From Euryarchaeota archaeon (lineage in GTDB: Archaea; Thermoplasmatota; SW-10-69-26; JACQPN01), in assembly GCA_016207515.1 (NCBI GenBank), contig JACQPN010000009.1:1-64000 (forward strand): a stretch of 64,000 nucleotides of DNA, given 5' to 3'. The notes under the pieces were generated by a model. It searched no databases. It was given only the letters and a program-made list of their open reading frames with translations, and was not told where the DNA came from. Numbering within the stretch: the stretch's first letter is position 1; each line of letters opens with the position of its first letter. Positions 6,741 through 50,283 of this stretch are shown here, in pieces. Position numbers and translations under genes: made by a program.

Positions 6741-6760
6741 GATTCCTGACCGTGAGAATC
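6741..6760. promoter_or_regulatory. Shared 20-bp inverted-repeat operator, site B
   Basis: GATTCCT-GACCGT-GAGAATC, five of seven plus seven of seven matches to the two half-sites. The right half and its flank (19 bases, 6753-6771) are identical to 44132-44150. A TATA-like TTGTATTC at 6782 begins 21 nt downstream, placing a transcript start near 6815, ahead of the regulator gene at 6854; autoregulation is possible. Confidence 0.65.
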
Positions 6761-6853
6761 ACGTCCGTGAATCGTGTGGATTTGTATTCAGTAGAGTTTC
6801 TCTAGGATTTTTGTAGAATTGTTCCGACAGAATACTCGGATGAGGCTTTACCG

Positions 6854-7780: not shown

Positions 7781-7784
7781 GGAC

Positions 7785-8612
7785 ATGGACGAGAGGATCT
7801 CTACCGACGCATCGAACGGGAACGAAGGTGAACCGACGGATCCCCAGCGCCGCCGGTTCATCAAGGGTGTCGGGATCGCGGCCGCCACGGGCGTCATCTC
7901 GCTCACCGCGGGCCAGCTCCTCGCAGAAGGAGCCGCCCGTGCATCGCAGGGACTCGACGGGAAGGAAGACGCGCGCCTCCAGTACGCGATGGTCATAGAC
8001 CTTGCGAAGTGCGATGGATGCAAGAAGTGCACGAAGGCCTGCCAGAAGGAGCATTTCCTGGCCGAGGACCAGGAATGGATCAAGGTCTACAAGGTCGACG
8101 ACGGCATCAGCGGCGAATACAATCTGCCTCGTCCGTGCATGATGTGCGCGAACCCACCATGCCGCAACGTCTGCCCCACCGGTGCGACGTTCGTGAACTC
8201 CGACGGACTAACGCTGATCAACCACGACAAGTGCATCGGCTGCCGGTTCTGCCTCGCGGCCTGCCCGTACAGCGCACGCACCTTCACTTGGAAGGAGCCG
8301 GAGCATACCCCCGAGGAGCTTGCGCACACGTATAGCCCGGAGATGCCCTTGCCCCATCGCCGCGGCGTCGCTGAGAAGTGCATGTTCTGCGTGCACCGTC
8401 GCAAGGAGGGGAAACTCCCGGCATGCGTCGAGGGCTGCCCGATGGGTGCCATCTATTTCGGCGACGCGGCCGAGAACGCCGTGACGAACAGCAAGGGCCA
8501 GACCTTGCCGTTACGGGAGACCCTTGCGGACAATGCCGCGTACAGGCTGCGTGACCACCTAGGTACGGGGCCGAGCGTGTTCTACCTACCGCAGAGGGGG
8601 CGCAGGGCATGA
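7785..8612 (+). CDS. Tat-exported 4x[4Fe-4S] electron-transfer protein (NrfC/DmsB/HybA-like)
   Basis: A 275-residue iron-sulfur subunit. A twin-arginine signal (RRRFIKGVG, about residue 23) and hydrophobic h-region show export through Tat. Four cysteine groups follow: CDGCKKCTKAC, CMMCANPPCRNVC, CIGCRFCLAAC and CMFCVHRRKEGKLPACVEGC, giving four cubane clusters as in NrfC, DmsB and QrcC. It overlaps the NrfD-type gene by 4 nt (ATGA), so the two form the classic quinone-linked module. No molybdopterin or cytochrome catalytic subunit is in this operon, so the terminal donor or acceptor must be encoded elsewhere or be one of the downstream surface proteins. Confidence 0.9.
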   Translation: MDERISTDASNGNEGEPTDPQRRRFIKGVGIAAATGVISLTAGQLLAEGAARASQGLDGKEDARLQYAMVIDLAKCDGCKKCTKACQKEHFLAEDQEWIKVYKVDDGISGEYNLPRPCMMCANPPCRNVCPTGATFVNSDGLTLINHDKCIGCRFCLAACPYSARTFTWKEPEHTPEELAHTYSPEMPLPHRRGVAEKCMFCVHRRKEGKLPACVEGCPMGAIYFGDAAENAVTNSKGQTLPLRETLADNAAYRLRDHLGTGPSVFYLPQRGRRA

Positions 8613-9991
8613 GCGAGCAGGGACTTGACCCCAAGACCAAGCGCATCCTTACTCCGCTTTTGCGCACCGGGTTGGGCTTCTACATAGCGCTCATCATCCT
8701 CGTGGGCCTCTTCCTGCTCGCCAACTACGCGTGGTCGGTCCAACTCGACAAGGGCCTCGCAGTCACTGGGCTAAACGATCGCGTCTCGTGGGGAATCTAC
8801 ATCTCGGTCTTCATCTACTTCATAGGGATCTCCTATGGCGGGACGTGCGTGTCGGCGATCCTGCGGCTCACGGGGGCCGAGTGGCGCCGGCCGATCACGC
8901 GCCTTGCTGAGACATCCACCGTCGCCGCGTTGCTCGTAGCGGCGATCATGCCGATGTTCGACCTCGGGCATCCCGAGAAGATCCTCGACGTAGTCTTCTA
9001 CGGACGCATCGAATCACCGCTCGTCTGGGATTTCATCTCGGTGGGCACGTACCTCGCGGCTAGCATGCTCTTCTTCTATCTGGCCCTGATCCCGGACCTC
9101 GCGATCCTTGACCGAGTGCTTCCCAAGCGCGTGCGGATTCGCCGCACGCTGTATCGCGTCTTCAAGATGCGATGGGAGGCGACGCCGGCCCAGGTGCGTA
9201 AACTCGAGCGCGCCCTCATGGCGATCACGATCATCATCATCCCCATCGCCGTGAGCGCGCACACGGTGCTCTCCTGGATGTTCGGGATGACAACGCGCGC
9301 GGGATGGCACAGTTCGATCTTCGGGCCGTACTTCGTCGCTGGTGCCTTGTTCTCCGGGATAGGGATCGTCGTGATCGCGATGGCGGTCGTCCGTTGGGCG
9401 CAGCACTTGGAGGATGTCATCACCGACTTCCATTTCCGCCGGATGGCCGACATCCTGCTCGTGTTCGGGCTGGCCTACCTCTACATGACTTTGAGCGAGT
9501 ACCTGACGATGACATTCCAGCCTTCGGACGACGAGAAAATCCTTGTCGGCCTGCTCACTTCGGGACCGCTCGCGCCGTATTTCTGGATCTCGACCCTGGG
9601 CCTTGTCTTGGCCGTGGCTCTCTTGGCCATCCCGAGGACACGCACGGTGGCGGGCATCACCATGGCGGCCCTGGTCGTGAACGTGGCACTCCTCATCAAG
9701 CGCTTCATCATCGTCGTGCCGAGCATGCAGGTGCCGCTCATCCCGGGCGACGCCGTCGCGACCTACTCGCCTACGTGGGTGGAGTGGGCGCTCATCGGAG
9801 GATCGTTCGCCGCCTTCGGCCTCATCTTCCTCGTCGCCTCGAAACTCGTTCCCATGGTCTCGATCTGGGAGGTCAGCGAAGGTGACAAAGCGCACGCGAA
9901 GGACGCCCCCGCCGCGCCGGAGGCAAGGACGCCGAGTCCCGAAGCCGTTGCATCGGTGAGCGTGGTCGTAGCCACGGAGGGTCGAAGTTGA
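8609..9991 (+). CDS. NrfD/PsrC-family quinone-interacting membrane subunit
   Basis: A 460-residue polytopic protein with about ten membrane helices. The N-terminal half has the NrfD/PsrC hallmarks: WGIYISVFIYFIGISYGG and a conserved DLGHPEK segment after helix three. The C-terminal tail (from about 430) is a soluble Ala/Pro-rich extension. It would exchange electrons between membrane quinone and the exported Fe-S protein encoded immediately upstream. Start ATG 8609 overlaps the previous stop as ATGA, and the gene in turn overlaps the next one by 4 nt, so the set is tightly coupled. Confidence 0.88.
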   Translation: MSEQGLDPKTKRILTPLLRTGLGFYIALIILVGLFLLANYAWSVQLDKGLAVTGLNDRVSWGIYISVFIYFIGISYGGTCVSAILRLTGAEWRRPITRLAETSTVAALLVAAIMPMFDLGHPEKILDVVFYGRIESPLVWDFISVGTYLAASMLFFYLALIPDLAILDRVLPKRVRIRRTLYRVFKMRWEATPAQVRKLERALMAITIIIIPIAVSAHTVLSWMFGMTTRAGWHSSIFGPYFVAGALFSGIGIVVIAMAVVRWAQHLEDVITDFHFRRMADILLVFGLAYLYMTLSEYLTMTFQPSDDEKILVGLLTSGPLAPYFWISTLGLVLAVALLAIPRTRTVAGITMAALVVNVALLIKRFIIVVPSMQVPLIPGDAVATYSPTWVEWALIGGSFAAFGLIFLVASKLVPMVSIWEVSEGDKAHAKDAPAAPEARTPSPEAVASVSVVVATEGRS

Positions 9992-11052
9992 ACCCGAGAT
10001 GGCAAGGACTCTACGGACGACGGGGCCGCGTCGTGCTCTTCTTGTGCTTCGCAATGGTCCTCACAGGGTTCGCTCTGCTCGTGCCTGTTGAAGGCAACCT
10101 CGACGGGGTCTCCCCACCCGAGGGTTGCACGTGTCACTCGGAGGAAGCGTCACCGGGCATCAAGGTCGTGGTCGATGGGTGGCCCGCGATATACACCCCG
10201 GACTCCACCTACACGCTGGCTGTCACGGCGACCGGGAGCGTTTCCGGTTCCGCAGGCGGCTTCTCGATGGAGGTCACCAAGGGCAGTCTCTATTCGAGCG
10301 ATCCGATGGTGAGCGCCTCGGGCAAGGTCGCAACACATTCCGGCCCTGACCACCGTCAATGGACGGTCGAATGGCGCGCACCCCCCGAGGACTCTGGTGA
10401 CACGAGTCTTGTCACGTACGTGAACCTCGCAAACGGCGACGAGTCGGAAGGAGAAGAGGATCACTGGAACGTTCTCACCCTCTCTGCGAAGGAGAAGGCG
10501 CCAGAACCACCGAAACCCTCCAGGTTAAGCCTGGCGTTCTCCGGGGAGAACGGAACGCTGGTCGCCGGACGCAACATCACGATCACGGCGACGCTCACGA
10601 ACTTCAGCGGCGCCCCGATCCGCAATGCGATTGTGACGTTCTATCAGAACACTAGCTATGGACAACTCGCGATCGGCAAGAACAAGACGGGTGCCGACGG
10701 GCGGACGCCGATAAACTGGACGGTCGTGTCGGCCTGCGAGTGCCTCTTCTTTGCACACTACGACGGCTCGTCGAAGAACCTTTCTGAAAACGCCACCGCC
10801 CTAGCGAGCGTGACCGATCCGAATGGCGTCTTCGACACGCTCTACCCACCGCAGACCCCATTCGTGTTCATGCAATACTATGCGGTCCGCGGATCCGTCG
10901 GGCTCGTGATCGGCGCAGTCTGGCTCACGCTCCTCTACGCGGGACTTTCCGTTTTCAAGGTCCGCTCGCTCGGCGCATCGGGAGGCGACGGAGCCGGCGG
11001 GCCGCTCAGTATCCTATCGTCACGGTCTAGGAAGAAGGTGGAACGGAAATGA
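9988..11052 (+). CDS. Secreted CTCH-motif protein (choice-of-anchor V-like) with Ig-like domain
   Basis: A 354-residue surface protein. A signal/anchor helix (about 12-28) is followed by PPEGCTCHSEEAS, a GWPAIYTPDSTYTL segment and a beta-rich domain, matching the 605-1603 protein. A bacterial Ig-like domain lies at about 175-265 (LSLAFSGENGTLVAGRNITI). A C-terminal helix (about 300-320) and basic tail anchor it. Start TTG 9988 overlaps the NrfD stop. Placement right after NrfD suggests it is the extracytoplasmic partner of that complex. The CxCH motif is not a standard heme motif, so a redox cofactor is only suspected. Confidence 0.68.
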   Translation: MNPRWQGLYGRRGRVVLFLCFAMVLTGFALLVPVEGNLDGVSPPEGCTCHSEEASPGIKVVVDGWPAIYTPDSTYTLAVTATGSVSGSAGGFSMEVTKGSLYSSDPMVSASGKVATHSGPDHRQWTVEWRAPPEDSGDTSLVTYVNLANGDESEGEEDHWNVLTLSAKEKAPEPPKPSRLSLAFSGENGTLVAGRNITITATLTNFSGAPIRNAIVTFYQNTSYGQLAIGKNKTGADGRTPINWTVVSACECLFFAHYDGSSKNLSENATALASVTDPNGVFDTLYPPQTPFVFMQYYAVRGSVGLVIGAVWLTLLYAGLSVFKVRSLGASGGDGAGGPLSILSSRSRKKVERK

Positions 11053-12512
11053 TGAACAGGAAAGAGACCCGGTCTTCGAAAGTTGGTGCGTGTCTTGTGA
11101 TCACCCTGGCGATGGTCGTATCGCTTGTGCCGATGCCGGCAGGTGCAGCGCCGCAGACGACGGACGCGCATATCGCGTCCTTCACCGCATCGCCATCCTA
11201 CGTGAACCTCAATAGGACCACTACTGTGACCATGACCGTCTCGAGCCTCTACGGCGGCGGCAACGACAACTACAAAGTGACAGTGTACGCCCCCGACGGG
11301 AGTGTGGTCGCGAGCGACTGGTTCAATTTCACCGCGGTCGGCTCGATCTCGAAGACGCTCGGCAACACCACGGTCGACTTCAAGGCGGCCATCACAAAGG
11401 TCGGCGCCTACCTCATCGAAGCGACGCACGGGAGCGCCATCGCCGCCTCGATCCCGCTCCAGACGACCGACAAGCTCCTCGTCGTCACCGAATTCGCCGC
11501 CGCGTCGAATCCGTGGACCGACATCCACAACTGTCCCATAGCGGAGGAGTTCCAGCGCGGGGACGAGGTCATCGCCCGCGCGTACGTCCGATACCTCTCG
11601 ACGGGCGAGATCCTCAACGGGACGCTAGTGCCGACCGCTCCGAAGAATGTCACCGGCACGCTCTTCGAGGAGACGAAGGTCATCAACTACAACGCCCAGG
11701 GTTTCTGGAGGGCCGCGTGGTTCATCCCATGGGACAAGCCGCTGGGGACGTACTCGTTCACCGTGGCCGCGTCTGACGGGATGGGTAACTCCGGGACGGG
11801 TGTGTCGCCGAAGGCGGGCGTTTATGGGGCGCTGAAGATCCTGGCGTCCATCCTTCCGACCACGGTCTCCACGACCAACGCCAGTTCCGGGGCGATCTCC
11901 AACGCCTTCTACCCCGGCGAGTCGGTTGGCATCGTCGCGCGATCGGTCTATGATCTCCACTTTGCGCACAACTTCGAGTACACGAAGACGAACCGGACGT
12001 TGGCGGGAACGCCCGCCAAGCCCGGACCCGGTCAGGATTACGCCCTCGGGACCGACCGCGGCGGAGTGGTGCAAGCGGCGATCGGCTCCGGGGCGTTCAA
12101 CGCGACCGCCGGAACCTTCGCCGACCAACTCGCCAAAGTGGACCTGGTCTTCAACGAGGCCACGGGCAACTGGATGGGGGCATGGACCGTCCCCACCGAT
12201 TCGGTGCTCACGGGGGACATCCTTGTCCGCGTCACGGCCCGCGACGGCGCCCCGACCGGCAACAGCGGAAGCGGGACGACGAGCATCACGACACTCGAAC
12301 GGCCTCTACCGGTCAAGGAGACCCAGTACGTGAACCAGACCGTCGAGGTGGAGAAACTGAAGGATGGGGCGCTCGATGGTCCGGTCGCTTACGGGCTCAT
12401 GGGCGTGACGCTCGCCGGCGGACTTGGCGTGGGCTACGTGCTGAGCCGCGGCAAGCTGTCCGGAGGCAAGAAAGGAGGCCCCGGGGAGAAAGGCGGCGAC
12501 GAATGGCAGTGA
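11049..12512 (+). CDS. Secreted multi-domain beta-sandwich surface protein
   Basis: A 487-residue protein with an N-terminal signal (about 12-32, ending near AGAAPQ) and at least three Ig-like/beta-sandwich modules built around repeats of a YKVTVYAPDGSVV- and YSFTVAASDGMGN-type strand. A C-terminal helix (about 450-470) is followed by a Gly/Lys-rich tail. There is no known catalytic motif. It starts 4 nt inside the previous gene, so it is part of the NrfD operon. I do not recognise the family; a scaffold or S-layer-associated role for the redox complex is an inference from position. Confidence 0.6.
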   Translation: MMNRKETRSSKVGACLVITLAMVVSLVPMPAGAAPQTTDAHIASFTASPSYVNLNRTTTVTMTVSSLYGGGNDNYKVTVYAPDGSVVASDWFNFTAVGSISKTLGNTTVDFKAAITKVGAYLIEATHGSAIAASIPLQTTDKLLVVTEFAAASNPWTDIHNCPIAEEFQRGDEVIARAYVRYLSTGEILNGTLVPTAPKNVTGTLFEETKVINYNAQGFWRAAWFIPWDKPLGTYSFTVAASDGMGNSGTGVSPKAGVYGALKILASILPTTVSTTNASSGAISNAFYPGESVGIVARSVYDLHFAHNFEYTKTNRTLAGTPAKPGPGQDYALGTDRGGVVQAAIGSGAFNATAGTFADQLAKVDLVFNEATGNWMGAWTVPTDSVLTGDILVRVTARDGAPTGNSGSGTTSITTLERPLPVKETQYVNQTVEVEKLKDGALDGPVAYGLMGVTLAGGLGVGYVLSRGKLSGGKKGGPGEKGGDEWQ

Positions 12513-12546
12513 GCCGCCCCGAGCATTATCAAAGGAGAAAGATCCT

Positions 12547-14142
12547 ATGAGATACGATACGACCAGAATCGCAATTGCATGCTTGTTGAGCGCCTTGACG
12601 GCGCTATTCGTCTTTGGGGGCGCCAGCGCGGCGCCGACCCTCGCCGTCAATCCCGACGAGGGCCCGGTCGGTACGCCTTTCACCGTGTCGGGCGGCGGCT
12701 TCGCGGCCGACTCTTCGGTCGACCTCGTCTGGCAGACGATGGAGGGAAACCGCGTGAGTGGCAGCGGCTTCACCGAGGTGTTCTGGCCGCTCAAGACGGT
12801 GAAGACCGACACAACGGGAGCATTCCGTGTCGAGCTCAAGGCCCCCTATGACCTGGGCGGTCCCCCGCACAGGGTCGAGGCACGTGTGGGCGACGCCGTC
12901 GCCTCGTCCACGGAGTTCACGATAACGCGAACCGCTGAGTTGTCTCCGGTCTCGGGACCCCTCGGGACGATGCTCACGCTCCACATGACCGGCGGCGGCT
13001 GGACGCAGTACGACAACATCGTCGCCGTCACCTACGACAATGCGTTCATCGGCTTCATGTGCAGTTTCAACAGCCAAGGCAACATGACATTGTGGCTACC
13101 GGCGACCGGAGGCGTGGGGCTGCACACGATCGACGTATGGCCCGCGCTTTACTGGGGCCCCGACACCGGTCCGACCCCGTGGAAGATCGCCCACCTAGCG
13201 GCGGGCGACCAGCCGACGGAGATCCCCCAGTACCACTTCGAGTTCCAGCTCACCGAGGGCGTGGCGACTCCCGACAAGATGTTGCCCCTCGAAGGGGCGA
13301 TCACCGGCGCCCAGCCGCCCTTGTCGGCCGAGGCTCTCGTGAACAGCCTGAAGGCAAGCGCAGCTCCGACGTTGGCGCTGAGCTCCGGCCTCATACCGCC
13401 GGGCCAGGAGATGATCGTCGCCGGAGGCGGCTTCAAGGCCGGCGACACGGTGAAGCTCACGTGGAGCACCGTCACCGCGAAGACGCAGATAGCCAAGGAC
13501 AAGAACAGGGGCTGGAACGCGACGACGACCGTGACCAAGGACCTGGCAAACGCACTCGTCGGTCCGACCGGTACCTTCTTCGTCACGCTGAAGGTCCCCT
13601 ACGACTTCGGTGGAGACCACGACATCAAAGCGGTGGTGCGAGGCGAGCCGGTCGCACAGACCTCGCTACGCGTCCAGCCCCACTTCGAGTTCGTCGGACC
13701 CGCAAAGGTCAAGGCGGGCGAGAAGGTGACCATCCGCGGCTACGGCCTCGGCTACGAGAAGTACACGGCCGTCTGGACGGTGCTTTACGACAACAAGCTC
13801 TCCGGCTGGGTCTCTGCGTTCGAGACCCAGGGCAACGCGACCTTCGAGATGTACGCCGTTGGCTCGCCCGGCAAGCACTTCATCGACATACACGAGGGCT
13901 CCAACGGTTGGCCGTACCTCAACCTTTGGGAGTCACCGTGGCCGTGGGAGCCGGCGCAGCACTTCAACTTCGACATCGTCGGTGGAACCGGAAGCGCGTC
14001 TTCGGTGGAACACATGGTCCAGCAAGACCTCTCCGGACTCGGCGACGCGAAGACCCAGGATGTCCCCGGGTTAGAGGCTCTTGCGGTCCTGGCAGCGATC
14101 GGGGTCGCCTCGCTCGCGTGGCGGCGCACCCGTTTCGAGTGA
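12547..14142 (+). CDS. Secreted IPT/TIG-like repeat protein with PGF-CTERM-like tail
   Basis: A 531-residue protein with a signal peptide ending near GASAAPTL. The body contains two related halves: each opens with a PTLALxPxxGPxGxxxxVxGGGF-like strand pattern (near 30 and 275) and continues with VxLVWxT and FRVxLKAPYD segments, so an internal duplication of IPT/TIG-like folds is visible. The end, VPGLEALAVLAAIGVASLAWRRTRF, is a PGF-CTERM-like sorting signal: a Pro-Gly-Leu, a helix and an Arg cluster. A ribosome site AAAGGAGA precedes the ATG by 7 nt. It is the last gene of the NrfD operon; the function is unknown. Confidence 0.6.
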   Translation: MRYDTTRIAIACLLSALTALFVFGGASAAPTLAVNPDEGPVGTPFTVSGGGFAADSSVDLVWQTMEGNRVSGSGFTEVFWPLKTVKTDTTGAFRVELKAPYDLGGPPHRVEARVGDAVASSTEFTITRTAELSPVSGPLGTMLTLHMTGGGWTQYDNIVAVTYDNAFIGFMCSFNSQGNMTLWLPATGGVGLHTIDVWPALYWGPDTGPTPWKIAHLAAGDQPTEIPQYHFEFQLTEGVATPDKMLPLEGAITGAQPPLSAEALVNSLKASAAPTLALSSGLIPPGQEMIVAGGGFKAGDTVKLTWSTVTAKTQIAKDKNRGWNATTTVTKDLANALVGPTGTFFVTLKVPYDFGGDHDIKAVVRGEPVAQTSLRVQPHFEFVGPAKVKAGEKVTIRGYGLGYEKYTAVWTVLYDNKLSGWVSAFETQGNATFEMYAVGSPGKHFIDIHEGSNGWPYLNLWESPWPWEPAQHFNFDIVGGTGSASSVEHMVQQDLSGLGDAKTQDVPGLEALAVLAAIGVASLAWRRTRFE

Positions 14143-41351: not shown

Positions 41352-42005
41352 TCACGTCCCCTCCAAGTACTTCGCGACGACCTTCTTCTCGATCAACATC
41401 AGCGTCTCGGAGAGGCTCGACTTGGAGACGCCGAGCCTGTCGGCCATGTCGGAGAGACTGACCTTACGGGGGAACTCGTAATAACCGGCGTTGACCGCAG
41501 AGCCCAGGATCTCACGCTGGCGCGACGTCAGGCCACCGTTGTCCCGCCGGCGTCCGGCGTAGAGGACCTTCACCCCGTTTCCCAACTGCCGGAGCGCGCC
41601 CAAGAAAGTCTGTGCCCGTTCCCTCGTGGAGATAAGGAGCCACCTGTCGCGTCCATCCTTCACCTCGAATGGGAACCGGGGCAGGGCGCCGCTCTCGCGG
41701 ACGGCCTTCGGGAACGCGCACTCCCGGACGATCAACCTGACGACGGCACCCTCTTGGGAACGCTCGACTATCTCTGGCTCCAGGGTAGCGTCACCAAGGA
41801 CCCGATGAAGCGCCGCCTCCCACCCGGGTCCGGTCAGGCTCACGACCTCCATGAAAGAGCCGTCACCGCGCGGGAAGCAGGACGCGATCCTGACCTTCGT
41901 GTCGGGGTGGGACGCGTGAACGTCGCGGCACCATGCGCCCCGGGGAGTCTCCATCTCAAGAACCATGACGAACGAGTTTTCGCCTGACATGTGAGGGTCT
42001 GCCAT
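41352..42005 (-). CDS. Bat-type HTH transcriptional regulator
   Basis: About 217 residues. The C-terminal domain is the bacterio-opsin activator type HTH: LTSRQREILGSAVNAGYYEFPRKVSLSDMADRLGVSKSSLSETL (in pieces TSRQREILGSAVNAGYYE, FPRKVSLSDMADRLGVS and KSSLSETL). The N-terminal half is an unidentified sensor-like domain with Cys in AWCRDVH, ASCFPRG and ECAFP. ATG 42005 (or 41990) follows a TATA box on the minus strand at 42031-42024 (CTTATACG) by about 20 nt. Divergent from the Cys-rich sensor-like gene; operator site C lies between them, making this a candidate for binding that site. Confidence 0.8.
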   Translation of the reverse strand: MADPHMSGENSFVMVLEMETPRGAWCRDVHASHPDTKVRIASCFPRGDGSFMEVVSLTGPGWEAALHRVLGDATLEPEIVERSQEGAVVRLIVRECAFPKAVRESGALPRFPFEVKDGRDRWLLISTRERAQTFLGALRQLGNGVKVLYAGRRRDNGGLTSRQREILGSAVNAGYYEFPRKVSLSDMADRLGVSKSSLSETLMLIEKKVVAKYLEGT

Positions 42006-42151
42006 GAAGTATACTACGCGCCCCCGTATAAGCGATAGACGTGATTGTCGGATGCGAGAAGCAGCCGGTGCGCGCACCGACCGGGCCCGGATCCCCGGAC
42101 AAGAAGTGACGGCACGTGGCCGCACGCTGTCTGGAGATGCGCTGAGCTCGC

Positions 42152-42171
42152 TCTTCTCGTGAGTGAGAATC
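42152..42171. promoter_or_regulatory. Shared 20-bp inverted-repeat operator, site C
   Basis: TCTTCTC-GTGAGT-GAGAATC: five of seven and seven of seven matches. A strong TATA (CATATATA, 42193-42200) begins after a 21-nt gap, pointing to the Cys-rich sensor-like gene at 42299. Confidence 0.7.
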
Positions 42172-42298
42172 AGGCGACGGAACCGTCGGACCCATATATA
42201 CGTTGCGTGAAAGTCGGGTCATAGGAGTCACCGATGGCCGGGGGCGGAGATGCGGACATCACCCCTTCGACGACCGTGGTCGGCTTCGCGGTTGGATC

Positions 42299-42796
42299 AT
42301 GACGAAACGCGCCATTGAGACCGCCGAGATCGGCGAGCAAGAGATGAACGCTCTCGCCGCCAGGATGCTTGGACACTACCTTTCCGGGAGTTTCCTGCCC
42401 GCCTACATGCCCGAAGAGCCTCGGGGGCTCGCCGCGATGGCGGGGGCAAACCGCGTGACCCCGGATCTCCTTTGGATCCTCTCAAAGGTCTACGGCGTCA
42501 ACAAGTGGGATTACGAAAAGTTCAAGGAACATATCGCGGAGGGCGCCCTGCCTGCCTGGAAAGGAGAATCGACCGTGAAGGAAGAGCCCGACACCCTGAC
42601 CATCCAGAGCGCCCGGTGCCCGCTCCTTCTCGAGGTGGAGGCCGATCCCCGTGTCTGCGCGATGTGTCAGATCGTGCACGAGTCCATCGTAAAGGACATG
42701 GCAAGACGCCAGATTGTGGATGTACGGTTTACGAAGATCCATCGTGATGGGGAGTCCTGCGAGCTCGTAATCAGGAGAACGACGGGGAACGTGTAG
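42299..42796 (+). CDS. Cys-rich sensor-like protein, copy 1
   Basis: A 165-residue soluble protein. An N-terminal helical part (MLGHYLSGSFLPAYMPEEPRGL, about 20-42, read in parts) is followed by a domain with Cys in SARCPLLLE, RVCAMCQIVHE and GESCELVIRR. The same pattern is found in copy 2 at 45205-45726 and resembles the four-Cys C-terminal domain of the regulator at 6854-7780, but there is no HTH. It may hold an Fe-S cluster or heme as a stand-alone sensor or storage unit. ATG 42299 chosen; TTG 42203 possible. Under operator site C. Confidence 0.65.
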   Translation: MTKRAIETAEIGEQEMNALAARMLGHYLSGSFLPAYMPEEPRGLAAMAGANRVTPDLLWILSKVYGVNKWDYEKFKEHIAEGALPAWKGESTVKEEPDTLTIQSARCPLLLEVEADPRVCAMCQIVHESIVKDMARRQIVDVRFTKIHRDGESCELVIRRTTGNV

Positions 42797-42968: not shown

Positions 42969-42988
42969 GATTCTCATGCCCGGTAATC
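42969..42988. promoter_or_regulatory. Shared 20-bp inverted-repeat operator, site D
   Basis: GATTCTC-ATGCCC-GGTAATC: seven and five of seven matches. A TATA-like TGATAAGT at 43010-43017 begins exactly 21 nt later, predicting a transcript start near 43040, inside the annotated frame of the multicopper oxidase. Confidence 0.65.
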
Positions 42989-43018: not shown

Positions 43019-44065
43019 ATGGCCGAGGGAGTTTCGGACGGTGATACCACGTCAGACCCCAAGGGCCCGATCATCCAATCCTCTAGGCAGATTTCCGCAT
43101 CGACAATGATTCTGGTCCTCATTTCCGCCATCGCCGGCGGCGCGATCACTTACGCGATCACGGACACCGACTTCGCCCCGCCCTTCGGCGGCGCGTCCGC
43201 CCAAGGGGCCGCCAAGATCCGTTCCTACTCCCTCGACATGGTCGCCACCGACATCGAGGTCGGCGAAGGCACGGTCTGGCACGCTTGGACGTTCAACGGC
43301 AGCGTCCCCGGTCCCATGCTAGAGGTGATGGTCGGTGAAACGCTCCGAGTGACGGTCCACAACAAGCACACTCTTACCCATAGCTTCCACACCCACGTCT
43401 CTCCCTACCCCCTCGAGATGGACGGGAGCCAGATCAATACGATCACGGGCGTGGGCGCCGGCGCGATGATCCCTCCGGGCGGCGAATACACTTACGAATA
43501 CCGACCCACGCTGCCAGGGCTCTACTACTACCACTGCCACAGCGCCGACGGCGACATGATGATCAGCCAACACATAGCGCAGGGCCTGTACGGCGCGATA
43601 ATCGTGAAGTCTCCCGATGAGCCGCAGGTACGTGACGAAGTCGTGTTCATGGCGGAGATCGGCAGCAAGGTGGACGGGGACAACAGGCCCTTCTTCATCA
43701 TGAATGGGAAGGGGATTCCCGGCGGGGAGCACACGTTGGAGAAGATCTTCGCAGAGAAGGGGATCGACGGAGTGGTCGCACAATTCGGCAAGACCGTCCC
43801 CGCCTTCAACGGCAAGATAGGCGAGACCGTCAGGTTCAACGTGGTGAACATCGGGGACCAGATCCACAGCTTCCACCTCCACGGCATGAACATGGTCCGC
43901 GACGACGACCCCCAAAAGATCGTGACGGCCAACGTGCTACAGCTCGTGCCCGGCGGCGCGGGACGGTTCCTCGTGACGCCCACGGAACCGGGAGTGTGGC
44001 TATTCCACTGCCACGTCGTGAGCCACGCCGACATGGGGATGATCGGCGTCTTCGTGGTGGGTTGA
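43019..44065 (+). CDS. Two-domain multicopper oxidase (type 1 copper in both domains)
   Basis: A 348-residue membrane-anchored oxidase. Helix at about 29-48, then domain 1 with HSFHTH (121-126), His-Cys-His 172-174, His185 and axial Leu (GLYG), and domain 2 with HSFHLH (283-288), His-Cys-His 330-332, His336 and Met341. Two complete type 1 sites plus the His pairs for the trinuclear centre fit a type A two-domain oxidase. It is unlike NirK at 48868, which has only one Cys. ATG 43019 is the longest form; the operator/TATA spacing suggests ATG 43106 (MILVLISAIAGG), which still keeps the helix. Substrate unknown. Confidence 0.87.
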   Translation: MAEGVSDGDTTSDPKGPIIQSSRQISASTMILVLISAIAGGAITYAITDTDFAPPFGGASAQGAAKIRSYSLDMVATDIEVGEGTVWHAWTFNGSVPGPMLEVMVGETLRVTVHNKHTLTHSFHTHVSPYPLEMDGSQINTITGVGAGAMIPPGGEYTYEYRPTLPGLYYYHCHSADGDMMISQHIAQGLYGAIIVKSPDEPQVRDEVVFMAEIGSKVDGDNRPFFIMNGKGIPGGEHTLEKIFAEKGIDGVVAQFGKTVPAFNGKIGETVRFNVVNIGDQIHSFHLHGMNMVRDDDPQKIVTANVLQLVPGGAGRFLVTPTEPGVWLFHCHVVSHADMGMIGVFVVG

Positions 44066-44119
44066 GGCTTCGGCGGATGTCGAGGACCCGCCGGGAGCGA
44101 GGCGAATCGGTATGAAGCC

Positions 44120-44139
44120 GATTCTCTTCCATGAGAATC
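44120..44139. promoter_or_regulatory. Shared 20-bp inverted-repeat operator, site E (perfect)
   Basis: GATTCTC-TTCCAT-GAGAATC, a perfect inverted repeat and the type sequence of the family. TATA box TTTATAAG (44161-44168) begins after a 21-nt gap. It controls the eight-gene operon starting at 44248. Confidence 0.78.
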
Positions 44140-44247
44140 ACGTCCGTGAAACAGCGTTCCTTTATAAGGTGAGGTTGACGGCGAGCTTGTACATGTGAGT
44201 GCGGGACCGGGTTCCGCGAAGGAATCGCACGACATAGTCGTGGTGTC

Positions 44248-44460
44248 ATGGACAAAGACGCGCGCACGATACTGGCTTGGACGTTCGCCGGCCTCACGAT
44301 GCTTCTTCTCTTCGCTGCCTTGACAGGTTCCCTGGCCGCTCCCGTGGGTTCGGGGCTCTTCGGGCAGTTCGCATGGGTCTATGCGGGCGTCGGCGTAGCC
44401 GTGTACCTGCTCCTGGTGATCATCCATCCGGGCCAAGGCAAGACCGGGGTGGGACCTTGA
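44248..44460 (+). CDS. Small two-helix membrane protein
   Basis: A 70-residue protein with helices at about 8-30 (TILAWTFAGLTMLLLFAAL) and 42-62 (WVYAGVGVAVYLLLVII). No charged or cofactor residues of note. First gene of an eight-gene operon in which every following gene starts within the end of the previous one. Function is not recognised. Confidence 0.62.
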   Translation: MDKDARTILAWTFAGLTMLLLFAALTGSLAAPVGSGLFGQFAWVYAGVGVAVYLLLVIIHPGQGKTGVGP

Positions 44461-44909
44461 GAGGGCGGACCATCGTGATCCTCGTCTCTCTGGCGTTCGT
44501 CCCATTTGCGGGGTGCGTCACGGTCGAGCCGACGCGTGCGGCTGATCTTCGCGTCACGGCCGCGTGGCAACCTTGGGGAGACGACCCGATTCCTCACCTC
44601 ATACTGAACGTCCATAACCGGGGGAACGCTCCTGCCCAAGTCGGACCAGGCGGGTCCGAGGTACGGATCTCCGGACCAGGCGCCATCGGCGAGATCGCAT
44701 GGCCCATGATGTGGGGCGACAGCGGATTCGCGCGACCGATAGAGCCGCAAAGTTCGATCAGCATCCCCCTGCATCCACGGATGGGCATGGATGGCCGGTT
44801 GGGCTTCGCCATCGACCACATGTGGGGAACCGCCGTGCCGCCACCCCCCGGAAAGTACGCCGTTTGCATCGCGGATTCCTGCGCCGACGCGACGTTGGTG
44901 GACGTATGA
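44457..44909 (+). CDS. Met/His-containing lipoprotein
   Basis: A 150-residue lipoprotein with FVPFAGC lipobox (Cys20). The start is TTG 44457, overlapping the previous stop as TTGA. The beta-sandwich domain has Met/His groups WPMMWGD, HPRMGMDG and IDHMWG that could bind Cu(I), and a Cys pair in VCIADSC. It resembles neither PCuAC nor cupredoxins by motif. A copper-handling role is suggested by the operon (YHS, ferritin-like) and neighbours only. Confidence 0.6.
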   Translation: MRGRTIVILVSLAFVPFAGCVTVEPTRAADLRVTAAWQPWGDDPIPHLILNVHNRGNAPAQVGPGGSEVRISGPGAIGEIAWPMMWGDSGFARPIEPQSSISIPLHPRMGMDGRLGFAIDHMWGTAVPPPPGKYAVCIADSCADATLVDV

Positions 44910-45208
44910 GCGTCAAGAAGACGCGGACGAACGGCATCACGGGCACGGTGGTCGCGATTACGGCAGGTTTCATCCTCCTCGCGACGGCGATTGCGTTGGG
45001 GACCTTCTCGGCGGGCGGTTGGGGCACCGTCATGGGACTCATGTGGTTCTGGTTCGCGATCCCGCTCCTCGTGGTTCTCCTCCTCGTCGCCTTCTTCGTC
45101 GACAAGGTCGAGCAGATGAGCAGGCGTCGCAGTGACGAGCGCCCGGGCGCAAGCCTGCCTTCGACGAAGGATCACGACGACGCACGGGTCCAGGAAGTGC
45201 CACGTTGA
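44906..45208 (+). CDS. Small two-helix membrane protein with charged tail
   Basis: A 100-residue protein: helices at about 11-33 and 41-63, then a hydrophilic tail (RRRSDERPGAS...). ATG 44906 overlaps the previous stop. Similar in layout to the first gene of the operon. No family recognised. Confidence 0.6.
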   Translation: MSVKKTRTNGITGTVVAITAGFILLATAIALGTFSAGGWGTVMGLMWFWFAIPLLVVLLLVAFFVDKVEQMSRRRSDERPGASLPSTKDHDDARVQEVPR

Positions 45209-45726
45209 CCGATGTGGAGACGGGCGAGACGGAGACGGGCGCGGCGGAGACCATGCGTCGCAACCGCGTCGCGGCACAGATACTCCAGGAATACCTCGAT
45301 GGCCGCTTTCTCCCACCGTTCGTCGCCGGAGAACCACGGCATTTGGGCGCGGCGTTGGGCGCGACGGCCATCGGGGAGGAGATCCTCGGCATGCTCGCCG
45401 CCGTGTATGGTGTCACCCAGTGGGATTTCGACTCCTTCAAACGCCACGTGCTTGAGGGAGCTCTCCCGGCCTGGAAGAGGGACACCGTCCTCACGGACAG
45501 CGGAACCGTCGTAAAGGTCCGAAGCACGATCTGTCCGCTCGAGCCCGAGGCGCGTCTTGATCCCAGGATCTGCGACATGTGCAAGCTGACGCAAGAGATC
45601 CTGATCAAAGGCGCGGCAGGGCCTGAGATCCTTGACGCCACCTTCACGCACACCGTCGCGAAAGGCGACCCAAGCTGCGATCTAGTGATCCGACGGAGGA
45701 GCGCCGATGCCGCGCGTCGATCGTGA
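45205..45726 (+). CDS. Cys-rich sensor-like protein, copy 2
   Basis: A 173-residue paralog of the 42299-42796 protein: matching helical part (LDGRFLPPFVAGEPRHLG), VYGVTQWDFDSFKRHVLEGALPAWK (parts VYGVTQWDFDSF and EGALPAWK) and Cys pattern STICPLEPEARLDPRICDMC and GDPSCDLVIRR. Start TTG 45205 (TTGA overlap). Found in the operon under operator E, while copy 1 is under operator C, so both are in the same regulon. Role as redox or metal sensor is inferred. Confidence 0.65.
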   Translation: MTDVETGETETGAAETMRRNRVAAQILQEYLDGRFLPPFVAGEPRHLGAALGATAIGEEILGMLAAVYGVTQWDFDSFKRHVLEGALPAWKRDTVLTDSGTVVKVRSTICPLEPEARLDPRICDMCKLTQEILIKGAAGPEILDATFTHTVAKGDPSCDLVIRRRSADAARRS

Positions 45727-46657
45727 TGAATCGGCCGAAGTGGGAGCGGCGATCGAAGGATTGACACGCATGCGCGACCAGGCTCCCGCCGGGCGAAAGG
45801 CGGCGCCACTCGCGCTCCGGAAGATTCTGTTGGCGATCGACGAATTCGAGGGGTCGCAGAAGGCGATAGCCTGGACCCCAGCTCTTGCCGGCGCGTTCGG
45901 TTCGAAGGTCCTTGTCGCGCACGTGCTCCCGTCGGCCGTGCCCTCGGCCCCCATCGATTTCGGTTACGGTCTTGGCGAGTCGGCGTCGCTGCTCCAAGAA
46001 CTGTCAAAGCGAGGGCAAGGCACTGTGGATAACGCGCTTGGAGTCCTTTCAAGACACGGGGTCACGGGCACTCCACTCTTTTCGTCAGGGCACCCGGTCG
46101 CAGAAATCGTCCGGCTCGCCAAGAATGAACGTGTCGACCTCGTCGTCGTCGGATCCCACGGACGAGGCGCTGTGGGCCGCCTCCTTCTTGGAAGCGTCGC
46201 TGACGGGGTGAAGAACCATGTGCGGGCAAGCGTCCTCATCGCGAAGGGCTATCCGCCGCCCGAACGCATCCTCGTGGCGACCGACGGCTCGCGGGCAAGC
46301 AAGAGGGCCGCGGCCCTTGGGATGCGGCTTCGACGCGCGTTTGACGCTTCAATGACGGTTCTTCACGTGGCCGACATGCTCCTTTACGGGCCGCCCGAAA
46401 CCGGACGAAAGGCCTTCGAAGCGGCCTTCGAGGGCCTGGACCCGGTCTGGAACGAGAGGAAGATGACATTCGACATCGAATCCGGGCACGCGGCCGAACG
46501 CATCATCGAACGCGCAAGACTCGAAGAATCGGATCTTGTGATCCTTGGCTCCCGGGGCCTGTCGCCGTTGAAGACCCTCGTCGCAGGAAGCGTGAGCGAT
46601 CGCGTCTCCCACGAGTCCAACACGTCAATCCTCATCGTCAAGGAGGCATCCCGTTGA
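45707..46657 (+). CDS. Tandem universal stress protein (two UspA domains)
   Basis: A 316-residue cytoplasmic protein with two Usp domains. Domain 1 (about 38-185) has KILLAIDEFEGSQKA and the ATP motif VVGSHGRGAVGRLLLGSVADGV. Domain 2 (about 186-316) has RILVATDGSRASKRAA and LGSRGLSPLKTLVAGSVSDRV. The start at 45707 overlaps the previous gene by 20 nt. Usp proteins bind ATP/AMP and respond to stress, often to metals or energy shortage. Confidence 0.9.
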   Translation: MPRVDRDESAEVGAAIEGLTRMRDQAPAGRKAAPLALRKILLAIDEFEGSQKAIAWTPALAGAFGSKVLVAHVLPSAVPSAPIDFGYGLGESASLLQELSKRGQGTVDNALGVLSRHGVTGTPLFSSGHPVAEIVRLAKNERVDLVVVGSHGRGAVGRLLLGSVADGVKNHVRASVLIAKGYPPPERILVATDGSRASKRAAALGMRLRRAFDASMTVLHVADMLLYGPPETGRKAFEAAFEGLDPVWNERKMTFDIESGHAAERIIERARLEESDLVILGSRGLSPLKTLVAGSVSDRVSHESNTSILIVKEASR

Positions 46658-47187
46658 GATCCGACCTCAATGATATCCGGCTACTGAAACTGGCAGAACT
46701 CTATGAGACCGCGTTCGAACAGTTCATCATCGAACTGGCGGCACGGTTCGTCGACGACGAAATGATCAGGTCCAAGCTTTCTGCCCTGAGCGCCCCCGAT
46801 GATCGTCATAGGGAGAGGATCGTCAAGGAGATGGAACGTCTCAACGCGCGGATAGACCCGGCCGACCGCGTCGACGTGATGAGGGCCGCGCTCCTCGACA
46901 TCCGCGATGTGGAGACGGCGGCCCGCGATTTCTACATCCGACAGGCCGACAACGTCCGCGACGTTCGCGTCGCCCGCCTGTTCCATGACCTGGCACGGGA
47001 AGAGGAAAGGCATCGGAGGATCGCAGATGAGGCCATCGCGATGGCGGATCAAAGAGCCGGCCGCGTCCTTTCAGGCGAGACGCTATCCGAGGAGCTAAGG
47101 ATCATGACGGACCCGCACGATTGGGCAAAAAGCGGCGGCCACGGCGAGCGGCATAGGCGAGAAAAAAGGGAAAGAGGCGCGGCATGA
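46654..47187 (+). CDS. Ferritin-like/rubrerythrin-type helical protein
   Basis: A 177-residue helical protein of the COG1633 kind. Candidate di-iron residues are in LYETAFEQFIIELAARF, DRHRERI, VETAARDFYIRQAD and REEERHRRIADEA. A basic tail follows. Start TTG 46654 overlaps the usp stop. Could store or detoxify iron or scavenge peroxide; the first helix lacks an obvious ExxH, so metal binding is uncertain. Confidence 0.68.
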   Translation: MRSDLNDIRLLKLAELYETAFEQFIIELAARFVDDEMIRSKLSALSAPDDRHRERIVKEMERLNARIDPADRVDVMRAALLDIRDVETAARDFYIRQADNVRDVRVARLFHDLAREEERHRRIADEAIAMADQRAGRVLSGETLSEELRIMTDPHDWAKSGGHGERHRREKRERGAA

Positions 47188-47351
47188 ACGGCGTCCCCGT
47201 TGCCCGCGACCCCGTCTGCGGCATGCTCTTGCCGGCCTCCGAGTCCACGCTGGCGAGCCACATTGAGGCCAAGACCTATTATTTCTGTTCAGAATCCTGC
47301 CGCACGCGCTTTGGCGCTCGCCCCGCGGCCTACCTCGAGGCGACAGCATGA
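47184..47351 (+). CDS. YHS-domain small metal-binding protein
   Basis: A 55-residue protein with DPVCGMLLPASES and YYFCSESCRTRF: the CGM motif plus CxxxC and the aromatic YYFC are the YHS/TRASH-like pattern found in copper ATPases and copper chaperones. ATG 47184 overlaps the previous stop, and its own stop overlaps the next ATG. Its presence among copper genes suggests Cu binding or sensing. Confidence 0.82.
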   Translation: MNGVPVARDPVCGMLLPASESTLASHIEAKTYYFCSESCRTRFGARPAAYLEATA

Positions 47352-48127
47352 CGACAGACGTTCACGGGCGGACTCCCCGGGCGATCGTCCGCGTCCGGGA
47401 TTACAAAACCACGCGGCTTGACGGCGGCACGCTCATCGTAAGCATCCCGCACGTTGGGGACGCAGGGGTTCTCCTCACGGATTTTCTTCTCGAACAGCAC
47501 GCCATGGACCAGGTCGCCGGCGTCGACTCCGACGCGTTCCCTCCGATCGCCTCGTTGCGGGGCGGAAAGCCGCGTTGCCCCATGAGGATCCACGCCGACC
47601 CCCGCGCGCGCGTCGCGGTGCTCCGATCCGATTTTGAGCCACCGTTCCTCCTCTGGCGGTCCATCGGGCGCGGCATCCTTGACTGGGCGGCCTCGAAGAA
47701 GATCCAAAGGATCGTCGTGGTGGACGGGATGACCGCGCAGTCGACCCCTAACATGGGCCCACCCCGCGTCCTGTTCGTCGCCACGTCGAAGGAGACCCGT
47801 TCGGCGGCCCTTGATGCCGACCTTGCTGAGTTCGACACGGGCGTCGTCGGAGGCATCGGCGCGGTCCTTCTTCTCGAGGCACGGTTCCAGGGCGTCGATG
47901 TCGTGGCCCTTTATTCGGAGGTGCGCGAACCCCTTGACGACGCGCGCGGCGTCGTGTCGCTTGCAAACGCCTTGCCGCATTTCGTCCCTGGCTTGCACCT
48001 TGACATGGCGAGGTTGACCGGTGATATCCGCCGGGTCGAAGCGGCCGTCGGCGCCATCCGCGCCCAAGCAACGGGCATCCTCCAGGATCTGTCCCAAAAG
48101 GAAAGCGAATCGCCGATGTACGGGTGA
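47348..48127 (+). CDS. PAC2-family (proteasome assembly chaperone-like) protein
   Basis: A 259-residue protein: GGTLIVSIPHVGDAGVLLTDFLL, IVVVDGMTAQ, VLFVATSKETR and GGIGAVLLLEARFQGVDVVALYSE match PAC2 (PF09754), a family found widely in archaea. Role in proteasome assembly is known for the eukaryotic member; in archaea it is not settled. Last gene of the stress operon. Ends before operator F. Confidence 0.82.
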   Translation: MTTDVHGRTPRAIVRVRDYKTTRLDGGTLIVSIPHVGDAGVLLTDFLLEQHAMDQVAGVDSDAFPPIASLRGGKPRCPMRIHADPRARVAVLRSDFEPPFLLWRSIGRGILDWAASKKIQRIVVVDGMTAQSTPNMGPPRVLFVATSKETRSAALDADLAEFDTGVVGGIGAVLLLEARFQGVDVVALYSEVREPLDDARGVVSLANALPHFVPGLHLDMARLTGDIRRVEAAVGAIRAQATGILQDLSQKESESPMYG

Positions 48128-48268: not shown

Positions 48269-48288
48269 TATTCTCAGCTTCGATATTC
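48269..48288. promoter_or_regulatory. Shared 20-bp inverted-repeat operator, site F
   Basis: TATTCTC-AGCTTC-GATATTC: six and five of seven matches, and notably similar to site G. A CCTTAT element near 48322 starts about 33 nt downstream, roughly one helical turn more than the 21-nt gap seen elsewhere. It precedes the Met-rich membrane protein at 48342. Confidence 0.5.
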
Positions 48289-48794: not shown

Positions 48795-48814
48795 GATTCT
48801 CAGTCTTGATTATC
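48795..48814. promoter_or_regulatory. Shared 20-bp inverted-repeat operator, site G
   Basis: GATTCTC-AGTCTT-GATTATC: seven and five of seven matches. TATA box TTTATATG (48836-48843) begins after a 21-nt gap, putting the transcript start at about 48866-48868, the first base of the nirK GTG. Confidence 0.72.
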
Positions 48815-48867: not shown

Positions 48868-50283
48868 GTGGACTACAGAATGAACACCAGATTGCGTTTC
48901 AACGGATCCGTTTGGAGCATCTCAGTAGTATTGCTTGCCGTGTCAGTGAGCGGCTGTATCGGTCAGCAGCCGACCGACGGGGACTCCGGTAAGTCCGGGG
49001 GCGGCGGGACCGCCCATGTCGAGATGATAGATCTCAAGTTCACCCCCGAGAACCTGACTGTGGCCCCAGGGACCATGGTCGTTTTTACGAACCACGATGC
49101 AGTGCAACACACCGTGACGCCGACCGACCGGGCGCTCTGGGGCAGCGATGGCAGCGGCGACGACGTCGGAAAATGGCTCACCACCGGCCAGTCGTGGTCC
49201 TTCACTTTCACGAAGACGGGTACTTTCCAGTATTTCTGCATCCCGCACGCCGGCAAGAACTCCACCGGCGTGTGGCGGGGAATGGTCGGTAGCATCATCG
49301 TTTCGCATTCGGCCTCGGCAAGCACGGGGTCTTCCAGCTCGTCAGGCAAGGCCGTTCCTGCCACCACGGTCGTACCGTCGCCGATCGCGCCGGCGCGCGC
49401 CCGTGCCGGCGCGGACGGGGTGGTGCATCTTGCTTTGGAGACGCGAGAGGTCGACGGCAAACTCGCGGACGGCGTGGGTTACACGTTCTGGACCTTCAAC
49501 GGGACCGTCCCGGGTCCGATGCTCAGGATCGGCGTCAACGACACCGTCGAGCTCACACTCAAGAATTCGGCGGATAGCACGATGCCACACAGCATCGATC
49601 TCCACGCGGTGACCGGGCCGGGAGGAGGCGCGGCGGTCACCCAATTGAGTCCGGGCGCATCGGCCTCATTCACTTTCAAAGCCTTGAACCCGGGACTCTA
49701 CGTCTACCACTGCGCCTCGGCGCATATTCCGAGCCACGTGGCGAACGGGATGTACGGGTTGATCCTAGTCGAGCCTGACGGGGGCCTTCCACCCGTGGAT
49801 AGAGAATTCTACGTCGTCCAGGGCGAGTTCTACACCGATGGCGCGCTTGGCGCCAAGGGCTTCCAGGGTTTTTCACTGTCAAAGCTCCTTGACGAAGAGC
49901 CGGAATACTTCCTGATGAACGGGATGGTGGGGGCCCTCACCGGGTCGGGCGCCCTCAAAGCGAATGTGAACGAAACGGTCCGTATCTATTTCGGAGTGGG
50001 GGGCTTCGTCCCATCAAGCTTCCACGTGATCGGCGAGATATTCGATCGGATCTATCCGGAAGGCGGCACACCCCCGGTCGCGAACGTGCAAACGACCCTG
50101 GTCCCGGCCGGTGGAGCGACGATCGTGGAGTTCAAAGTCGAGGTCCCGGGCACTTACCTACTCGTCGACCATTGGCTGACGCATGCGATCGACCGGGGTG
50201 CTGCGGGCCACCTCGTGGTGACGGGAGATGAGGACCGGGAAGTCTTCTCCGGGACGTCGACGGGCGCCGGCTCGGGGCACTAG
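48868..50283 (+). CDS. nirK: Copper nitrite reductase NirK with N-terminal cupredoxin domain
   Basis: A 471-residue lipoprotein (VSGC lipobox, Cys30). Residues 50-147 form a cupredoxin with His81, Cys124, His127 and Met139. After a Ser/Pro linker comes NirK: type 1 copper His241, Cys282, His290, Met295; type 2 copper His246, His281 and His435; catalytic Asp244 (HSIDLH) and His386 (SSFHVIGEIFD). All catalytic residues are present, so it should reduce nitrite to NO. The fused cupredoxin can pass electrons in, as in Hyphomicrobium NirK. GTG 48868 is leaderless by promoter position; ATG 48880 is the alternative. Confidence 0.93.
   Translation: MDYRMNTRLRFNGSVWSISVVLLAVSVSGCIGQQPTDGDSGKSGGGGTAHVEMIDLKFTPENLTVAPGTMVVFTNHDAVQHTVTPTDRALWGSDGSGDDVGKWLTTGQSWSFTFTKTGTFQYFCIPHAGKNSTGVWRGMVGSIIVSHSASASTGSSSSSGKAVPATTVVPSPIAPARARAGADGVVHLALETREVDGKLADGVGYTFWTFNGTVPGPMLRIGVNDTVELTLKNSADSTMPHSIDLHAVTGPGGGAAVTQLSPGASASFTFKALNPGLYVYHCASAHIPSHVANGMYGLILVEPDGGLPPVDREFYVVQGEFYTDGALGAKGFQGFSLSKLLDEEPEYFLMNGMVGALTGSGALKANVNETVRIYFGVGGFVPSSFHVIGEIFDRIYPEGGTPPVANVQTTLVPAGGATIVEFKVEVPGTYLLVDHWLTHAIDRGAAGHLVVTGDEDREVFSGTSTGAGSGH

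Follow-up and report, generated by a model that had tools for sequence, protein, structure and literature searches.

The stretch analysed here (the window) corresponds to the initial 64 kb of the 137-kb contig C9 (JACQPN010000009.1) from a Euryarchaeota archaeon genome bin of 2.67 Mb and 98% completeness. Its TATA boxes, together with genes for an HTH_10 regulator and a PAC2 protein, identify the window as archaeal. An assignment to Thermoplasmatota is suggested by the gene content and by the NirK and two-domain cupredoxin sets published for Thermoplasmata (PMC9038741). At positions 44248–48127, eight open reading frames (ORFs), o1 to o8, follow one another on the forward strand, and overlaps were found at all seven junctions, as an earlier reading of the letters alone (the sequence-only reading) had described. 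The overlap is TTGA at o1/o2, o3/o4, and o5/o6, ATGA at o2/o3, o6/o7, and o7/o8, and 20 nucleotides (nt) long at o4/o5, while purine-rich, Shine-Dalgarno-like stretches precede the internal starts. Since 4-base overlaps are common elsewhere in the genome and the window (e.g., at 8609, 9988, 11049, and 24329), those of o1–o8 indicate an operon and nothing more special, and the eight genes are predicted to form one transcription unit. This operon sits inside a 9-kb cluster that also encodes an HTH_10 regulator, an o4 paralogue, a multicopper oxidase, and a cupredoxin-fused nitrite reductase, NirK (Table 1).

Upstream of o1, a perfect dyad, GATTCTC-N6-GAGAATC, was found, which we took to be the "perfect operator E" of the sequence-only reading. 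It is the sole perfect copy in the genome, and its occurrence above chance was confirmed. Within the window, 12 dyads with up to three mismatches were counted against 3.1 expected, a number reached in none of 100 shuffles. All five intergenic regions between the HTH_10 gene and nirK carry the dyad with 0–3 mismatches. Their mismatches sum to 9, compared with 28.8 in random sequence and a minimum of 20 in 4000 trials of Markov resampling, with the qualification that the consensus was derived from one of these five regions, whose zero mismatches are not independent. Compared with the other intergenic regions of the genome, in which the dyad is rare, those of the cluster are distinct (Mann-Whitney p = 2e-4). 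Furthermore, 5 of the 17 genome sites with at most two mismatches fall within 7 kb at the nirK cluster (Poisson 1e-9). The distance from dyad to TATA-like element is about 21 nt at sites 42152, 42969, 44120, 48795, and 6741, at two sites on contig C10 of the same genome, and at one site in a related genome (G213, described below), and about 10 nt at most remaining sites. This position just upstream of the TATA box fits an activator. The eight-gene unit is therefore real, but the shared regulation reaches well beyond it.

Some further features of the operators were observed. A second perfect dyad, GAATCGG-TATGAAG-CCGATTC at 44104–44124, overlaps the left arm of the o1 operator and may bind a second dimer. 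The sequence around the right arm (GAGAATCACGTCCGTGAA) is identical at the 6741 and 44120 sites. Perfect or near-perfect operators in four other genomes (G029, G021, G010, and G043) lie beside unrelated genes and were set aside.

Table 1. Features of the nirK cluster and operator copies in the window; mismatches are relative to GATTCTC-N6-GAGAATC.
Feature	Position	Strand	Basis and remarks
Operator copy, 2 mismatches, before ArsR/ATC-hydrolase-like regulator and iron-sulphur (FeS)-NrfD genes	6741..6760	+	motif scan
Bat-type HTH_10 regulator, candidate operator-binding protein	41352..42005	-	HTH_10 E 3e-17; probable leaderless start 42005
Operator copy, 2 mismatches, in the HTH_10 gene's own promoter	42043..42062	-	11 nt upstream of TTATACG, assuming leaderless start 42005
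Operator copy, 2 mismatches, before o4 paralogue	42152..42171	+	21-22 nt upstream of ATATATA
o4 paralogue, 40-41% identical	42296..42796	+	sequence comparison
Operator copy, 2 mismatches, before two-domain multicopper oxidase	42969..42988	+	motif scan
Two-domain multicopper oxidase	43019..44065	+	domain match; true start probably slightly downstream of 43019
Perfect dyad GATTCTC-TTCCAT-GAGAATC, putative operator of o1-o8	44120..44139	+	motif scan
TATA box TTTATAAG	44161..44168	+	sequence; 21 nt downstream of the 44120-44139 operator
Small hairpin CACGAC-ATA-GTCGTG, just 5' of the o1 start codon	44228..44242	+	sequence
o1, small membrane protein, 70 amino acids (aa)	44248..44460	+	no family above cut-off
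o2, lipoprotein, 150 aa, lipobox FAGC, immunoglobulin-like beta fold	44457..44909	+	no family above cut-off
o3, membrane protein, 100 aa	44906..45208	+	membrane-family matches, all sub-threshold
o4, Cys-rich protein	45205..45726	+	no family above cut-off; C110, C123, C126, C158 invariant
o5, tandem double universal stress protein (Usp)	45707..46657	+	domain match E 6e-51
o6, rubrerythrin/ferritin-like protein	46654..47187	+	Pfam Rubrerythrin above cut-off, E 4e-6
o7, YHS-domain (TRASH-like) metal-binding protein, 55 aa	47184..47351	+	YHS E 1.5e-9
o8, PAC2-family protein	47348..48127	+	PAC2 E 7.5e-28, 98 bits
Operator copy, 3 mismatches, before 141-aa membrane gene	48269..48288	+	about 10 nt upstream of CTTATCG
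Met/Gly-rich membrane protein, 141 aa	48339..48764	+	ORF, domain search
Operator copy, 2 mismatches, before nirK	48795..48814	+	21 nt upstream of TTTATATG
NirK with N-terminal cupredoxin domain (2dv6-type)	48868..50283	+	domain and PDB sequence match

Among PDB entries, NirK is matched best by 2dv6, a cupredoxin-fused nitrite reductase. When aligned over its full length with 2dv6 and 2zoo, it showed two cupredoxin-type domains with conserved type 1 and type 2 copper motifs, IDLH, YHCA, and SSFHVIGEIFD among them, the copper ligands being taken from the sequence alignment and not from a structure. In the neighbouring oxidase, each of the two domains has HCH-type type 1 copper motifs, and HxH motifs are also present, which suggests a two-domain type with one type 1 site per domain. 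In the genome bin, only one haem-copper oxidase was found, and it scores very strongly as COX1; PF00115 gave no further match that might represent a nitric oxide (NO) reductase, and no adjacent nor gene was seen at the nirK cluster. NO from NirK therefore lacks such a reductase as an outlet in this bin and would need another one, a gap that would make a protective operon useful.

For comparison, 390 genomes of the phylum were used, none of which belongs to the genus or family of the window genome and four of which belong to its order. Comparative synteny, the check proposed by the sequence-only reading, strengthens the interpretation as a dedicated response to copper or reactive nitrogen, since the same genes occur with the same operator in G213, a genome from another family. 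NirK was detected in 9 of the 390 genomes, and only in G213 are other cluster genes found beside it. On one contig of G213, genes for a ferritin-like protein and a PAC2 protein (46% identical to o8) stand in tandem behind a 1-mismatch dyad; their neighbours are the genes for NirK (63%) and the two-domain oxidase (60%), where additional dyads occur. On a second contig, the gene for an o2 orthologue (45%) overlaps that for a double Usp (39%), and the dyad present there matches perfectly in its right arm. A third contig (4.3 kb) places the best HTH_10 orthologue (39%) beside a homologue of the Cys-rich protein. The promoters of the oxidase, ferritin-PAC2, and lipoprotein-Usp units carry dyads with 1–3 mismatches, and with a weight matrix built only from sites of the window genome (G000), the dyad at 1822 is the top match in G213 (27.8 bits). 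One 2-mismatch site (L080:8106) lies within coding sequence, and the promoter site at 8547 was used instead. The o4 Cys family was identified in 3 of the 390 genomes, and these are the very genomes that have strong ferritin-like (o6) matches; two of them supplied the search models, leaving G213 as the one independent confirmation of the co-occurrence. In G004, a genome from the order of the window genome, an HTH_10 homologue, DoxX, a double Usp, a ferritin-like protein, and a two-domain oxidase are linked.

Within the operon, the double Usp, ferritin-like, YHS, and PAC2 identities proposed by the sequence-only reading are supported by domain matches. In o6, which has a 42% identical homologue in G004 and a distant orthologue in G213, E87 and the E117-x-x-H120 motif are conserved with G004, while the first-half ligand is of the D/E type and variable. 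The same reading had called the operon proteasome-linked, a label derived solely from the PAC2 domain of o8 and not retained here: o8 scores 73.7 bits with TIGR00161 against a cut-off of 199.25, and does not reach the TIGR00161/TIGR00162 level expected of a proteasome assembly chaperone equivalog. For o2, a 49% identical paralogue on C10 and the G213 orthologue both adjoin operator sites, and the His/Met residues are only partly conserved. Its predicted structure (pLDDT, predicted local distance difference test score, 74) gave no significant structural match in Foldseek; a faint likeness to PCuAC and Cu(I)-chaperone folds fell short of significance. The o4 protein showed weak similarity, below the cut-off, to the MetOD1 profile. 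Foldseek returned no match at E <= 0.001 for its model (pLDDT 85), and the weak matches include TRAPP and H-NOX folds, a resemblance that we treat only as a lead.

A second group of operators was observed on contig C10, where three sites with at most two mismatches lie within 6 kb. The first precedes a membrane-protein/lipoprotein pair paralogous to o3 and o2, the second another o3-like gene, and the third (C10:23321) a PsrA/PhsA-like molybdoenzyme operon, this last site lacking the TATA geometry of the others. The o3 paralogues at the two former loci are of the GTxSAGGW type. Genes in C10:18000–33000 include the PsrA/PhsA-like molybdoenzyme, TatA, the o2/o3 paralogue pair, ArsR/BigR-like, SQR/FCSD-like, DoxX, and YHS genes, and the region is possibly a sulphur branch of the same regulon. 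In the window, the operator copy at 6741 stands before a gene in which an ArsR-type regulator is joined to an ATC-hydrolase-like domain; FeS, NrfD, and other genes of respiratory appearance come next (6741–14142).

Taken as a whole, the locus is best explained by a regulon for nitrite and low oxygen that the HTH_10 protein activates and in which o1–o8 are responsible for protection and sensing, a reading to which we assign a probability of roughly 0.55. A dimeric activator, most likely this protein, would bind GATTCTC-N6-GAGAATC on the upstream side of the TATA box, at a distance of 21 nt (about two helical turns) or about 10 nt (one turn), and recruit the basal machinery. The signal would most likely be a shift to nitrite and low oxygen, with NO made by NirK, and would be read by the HTH_10 protein through a pair of conserved cysteines in its N-terminal domain, perhaps with a contribution from the Cys-rich o4 family. 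NirK, the multicopper oxidase, and possibly the molybdenum/NrfD complexes would be the respiratory parts of the regulon. The operon would supply the protective parts, namely an extracytoplasmic lipoprotein, small membrane proteins, a redox- or NO-responsive Cys protein, the double Usp, and the PAC2 protein, with the ferritin-like and YHS proteins probably involved in metal or radical handling. What the sequence shows directly is the order and overlap of the genes, the operator with its recurrence and spacing, and a linkage to NirK that is kept in a second family; we infer co-transcription, the operator-binding protein, the signal, and the activity of each protein. The sequence-only reading had proposed a response to copper or reactive nitrogen; this remains plausible, and genes for NirK and a multicopper oxidase stand under the same operator, but copper and nitrite/NO are not separable from sequence. 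Reactive nitrogen is favoured over copper alone.

A more specific proposal is advanced tentatively, at odds well short of even: a hitherto undescribed, non-haloarchaeal nitrite/NO-stress regulon in which HTH_10 and the operator couple NirK and the oxidase to conserved genes for damage control (lipoprotein, PAC2 protein, ferritin-like protein, and double Usp), and in which o4 would be a new redox/NO sensor partner of the activator. The locus offers a concrete candidate pair of operator and regulator, together with a set of accessory genes, in uncultured archaea, with synteny and operator conserved across families. It also names candidate NO/nitrite protection genes that have no assigned function today, namely the o4 Cys family, the o2 lipoprotein, and a PAC2 subfamily.

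To our knowledge, essentially all that is known of how archaea regulate nitrite reduction comes from haloarchaea. In these organisms, Bat-like regulators without PAS/GAF domains (NarO, DmsR) act in denitrification (PMC11218638, PMC10062603), and in Haloferax mediterranei a semi-palindrome occurs eight times in a 12.5-kb nirK/nor region, marking main and accessory genes (PMC11218638). The present cluster resembles the denitrification islands of Haloferax volcanii and H. mediterranei in that a Bat-type HTH_10 regulator without PAS/GAF is encoded among the genes whose promoters bear the dyad, as for NarO and DmsR, and in that the palindrome is repeated before nirK, copper-protein, and regulator genes. 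The logic of an HTH_10-activated nirK regulon would thus parallel the NarO/DmsR islands. In contrast to those islands, the operator here is GATTCTC-N6-GAGAATC and not the haloarchaeal CGAAYATDKTYG (CGAA-N4-TTCG), and the accessory operon consists of Usp, ferritin, YHS, PAC2, Cys protein, and lipoprotein genes. The haloarchaeal motif is absent from the cluster, its single copy in the 64-kb window being located outside it at 35281. Because the motif differs, the cluster is not classed as a NarO regulon. A NarO-like CGAA-N4-TTCG next to the HTH_10 gene of G004 was not used, as it recurs elsewhere in these genomes, also outside promoters. The main text of PMC11218638 contains no mention of universal stress, YHS, PAC2, or proteasome assembly. 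NirK together with two-domain cupredoxins, as found here, has also been described in soil and sediment Thermoplasmata ('Ca. Angelarchaeales', PMC9038741), in a text where neither 'universal stress' nor 'proteasome' occurs and no Usp or proteasome-linked operon is mentioned. A literature search on this gene combination retrieved nothing relevant. The claim of the sequence-only reading that no equivalent had been described therefore needs dividing: the regulatory layout is known in kind from Haloferax (PMC11218638, PMC10062603), while novelty, as far as the searches show, apparently lies in the operator, in the accessory set, and in the Cys-rich family with its restricted distribution.

Several observations weigh against the nitrite/low-oxygen interpretation or its details. 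Besides the HTH_10 protein, another candidate for binding the operator is the ArsR-type regulator encoded downstream of site 6741. Palindrome counts are unspecific genome-wide, with 8–40 matches at up to two mismatches in unrelated genomes; raw counts were consequently dropped as evidence in favour of clustering, promoter position, and cross-genome recurrence. In G213, the counterparts are scattered over several contigs, and o1, o3, and o7 were not found beside other operon genes. The dyad is absent from G004, where the HTH_10 homologue stops before the recognition helix, near a contig end (G004:C46). Finally, the sulphur-type genes accompanied by the operator on C10 indicate that the signal may be broader than nitrite.

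The main rival, which we regard as somewhat unlikely, is a general low-oxygen or dormancy regulon with DosR-like logic, in which Usp, ferritin, and alternative respiration would be induced by hypoxia irrespective of nitrogen oxides. DosR of Mycobacterium tuberculosis is a bacterial LuxR/NarL-type two-component regulator, unlike the HTH_10 protein and the unrelated operator found here. The types of protein combined are similar, as Usps, the cation P-type ATPase CtpF, bacterioferritin, and nitrate/nitrite genes are co-induced in the hypoxia/DosR sets of that species (PMC8044303). Consistent with this rival, several double Usps of G213 lie near operator sites, with a P-type ATPase at one of these loci, and the operator precedes both the NrfD/FeS operon at 6741 and the molybdoenzyme operon at C10:23321. 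However, the latter site is the one without TATA geometry, and the tightest linkage, kept in G213, is to NirK and the multicopper oxidase.

A copper homeostasis operon appears less probable still and is judged unlikely. Copper load would be sensed, the lipoprotein, YHS, and small Met/His proteins would bind or buffer copper, and NirK and the oxidase would be included for their copper need. The cupredoxin-rich neighbourhood, the YHS/TRASH domain of o7, the PCuAC/Cu(I)-chaperone resemblance of the o2 model, and a small Met/His-rich secreted ORF of G213 (L077:3011-3256) behind an operator copy (2919) all point in this direction. On the other side, the operon includes no copper P-type ATPase, CopZ, or CsoR-type regulator, conservation of the o2 His/Met residues is only partial, and the double Usp, ferritin-like, and PAC2 proteins, as well as the NrfD/molybdenum complexes under the same operator, fit respiration better.

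A reactive-sulphur response, in which the regulon would serve sulphide or persulphide handling and the nirK linkage would be secondary, could account for the ArsR/BigR-like, SQR/FCSD-like, DoxX, and YHS genes at the C10 operator loci, but is quite improbable, since these sulphur genes occur in neither the window cluster nor the nirK cluster of G213. A chance neighbourhood, with an ordinary stress operon happening to adjoin nirK in a genome where overlapping operons are common, is hardly credible given an operator common to every cluster promoter, the operator statistics, and the conservation of linkage and operator in another family.

Minor observations concern G004 (Centralia_MAG_189), which was the sole match in a profile search of genome contigs with the ferritin-like alignment. 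Its two-domain oxidase is extended at the C-terminus by an additional cupredoxin-like stretch. JAJPHT010000030.1 is titled 'Proteobacteria bacterium Centralia_MAG_189', yet it is placed in the order of the window genome, and the title looks wrong.

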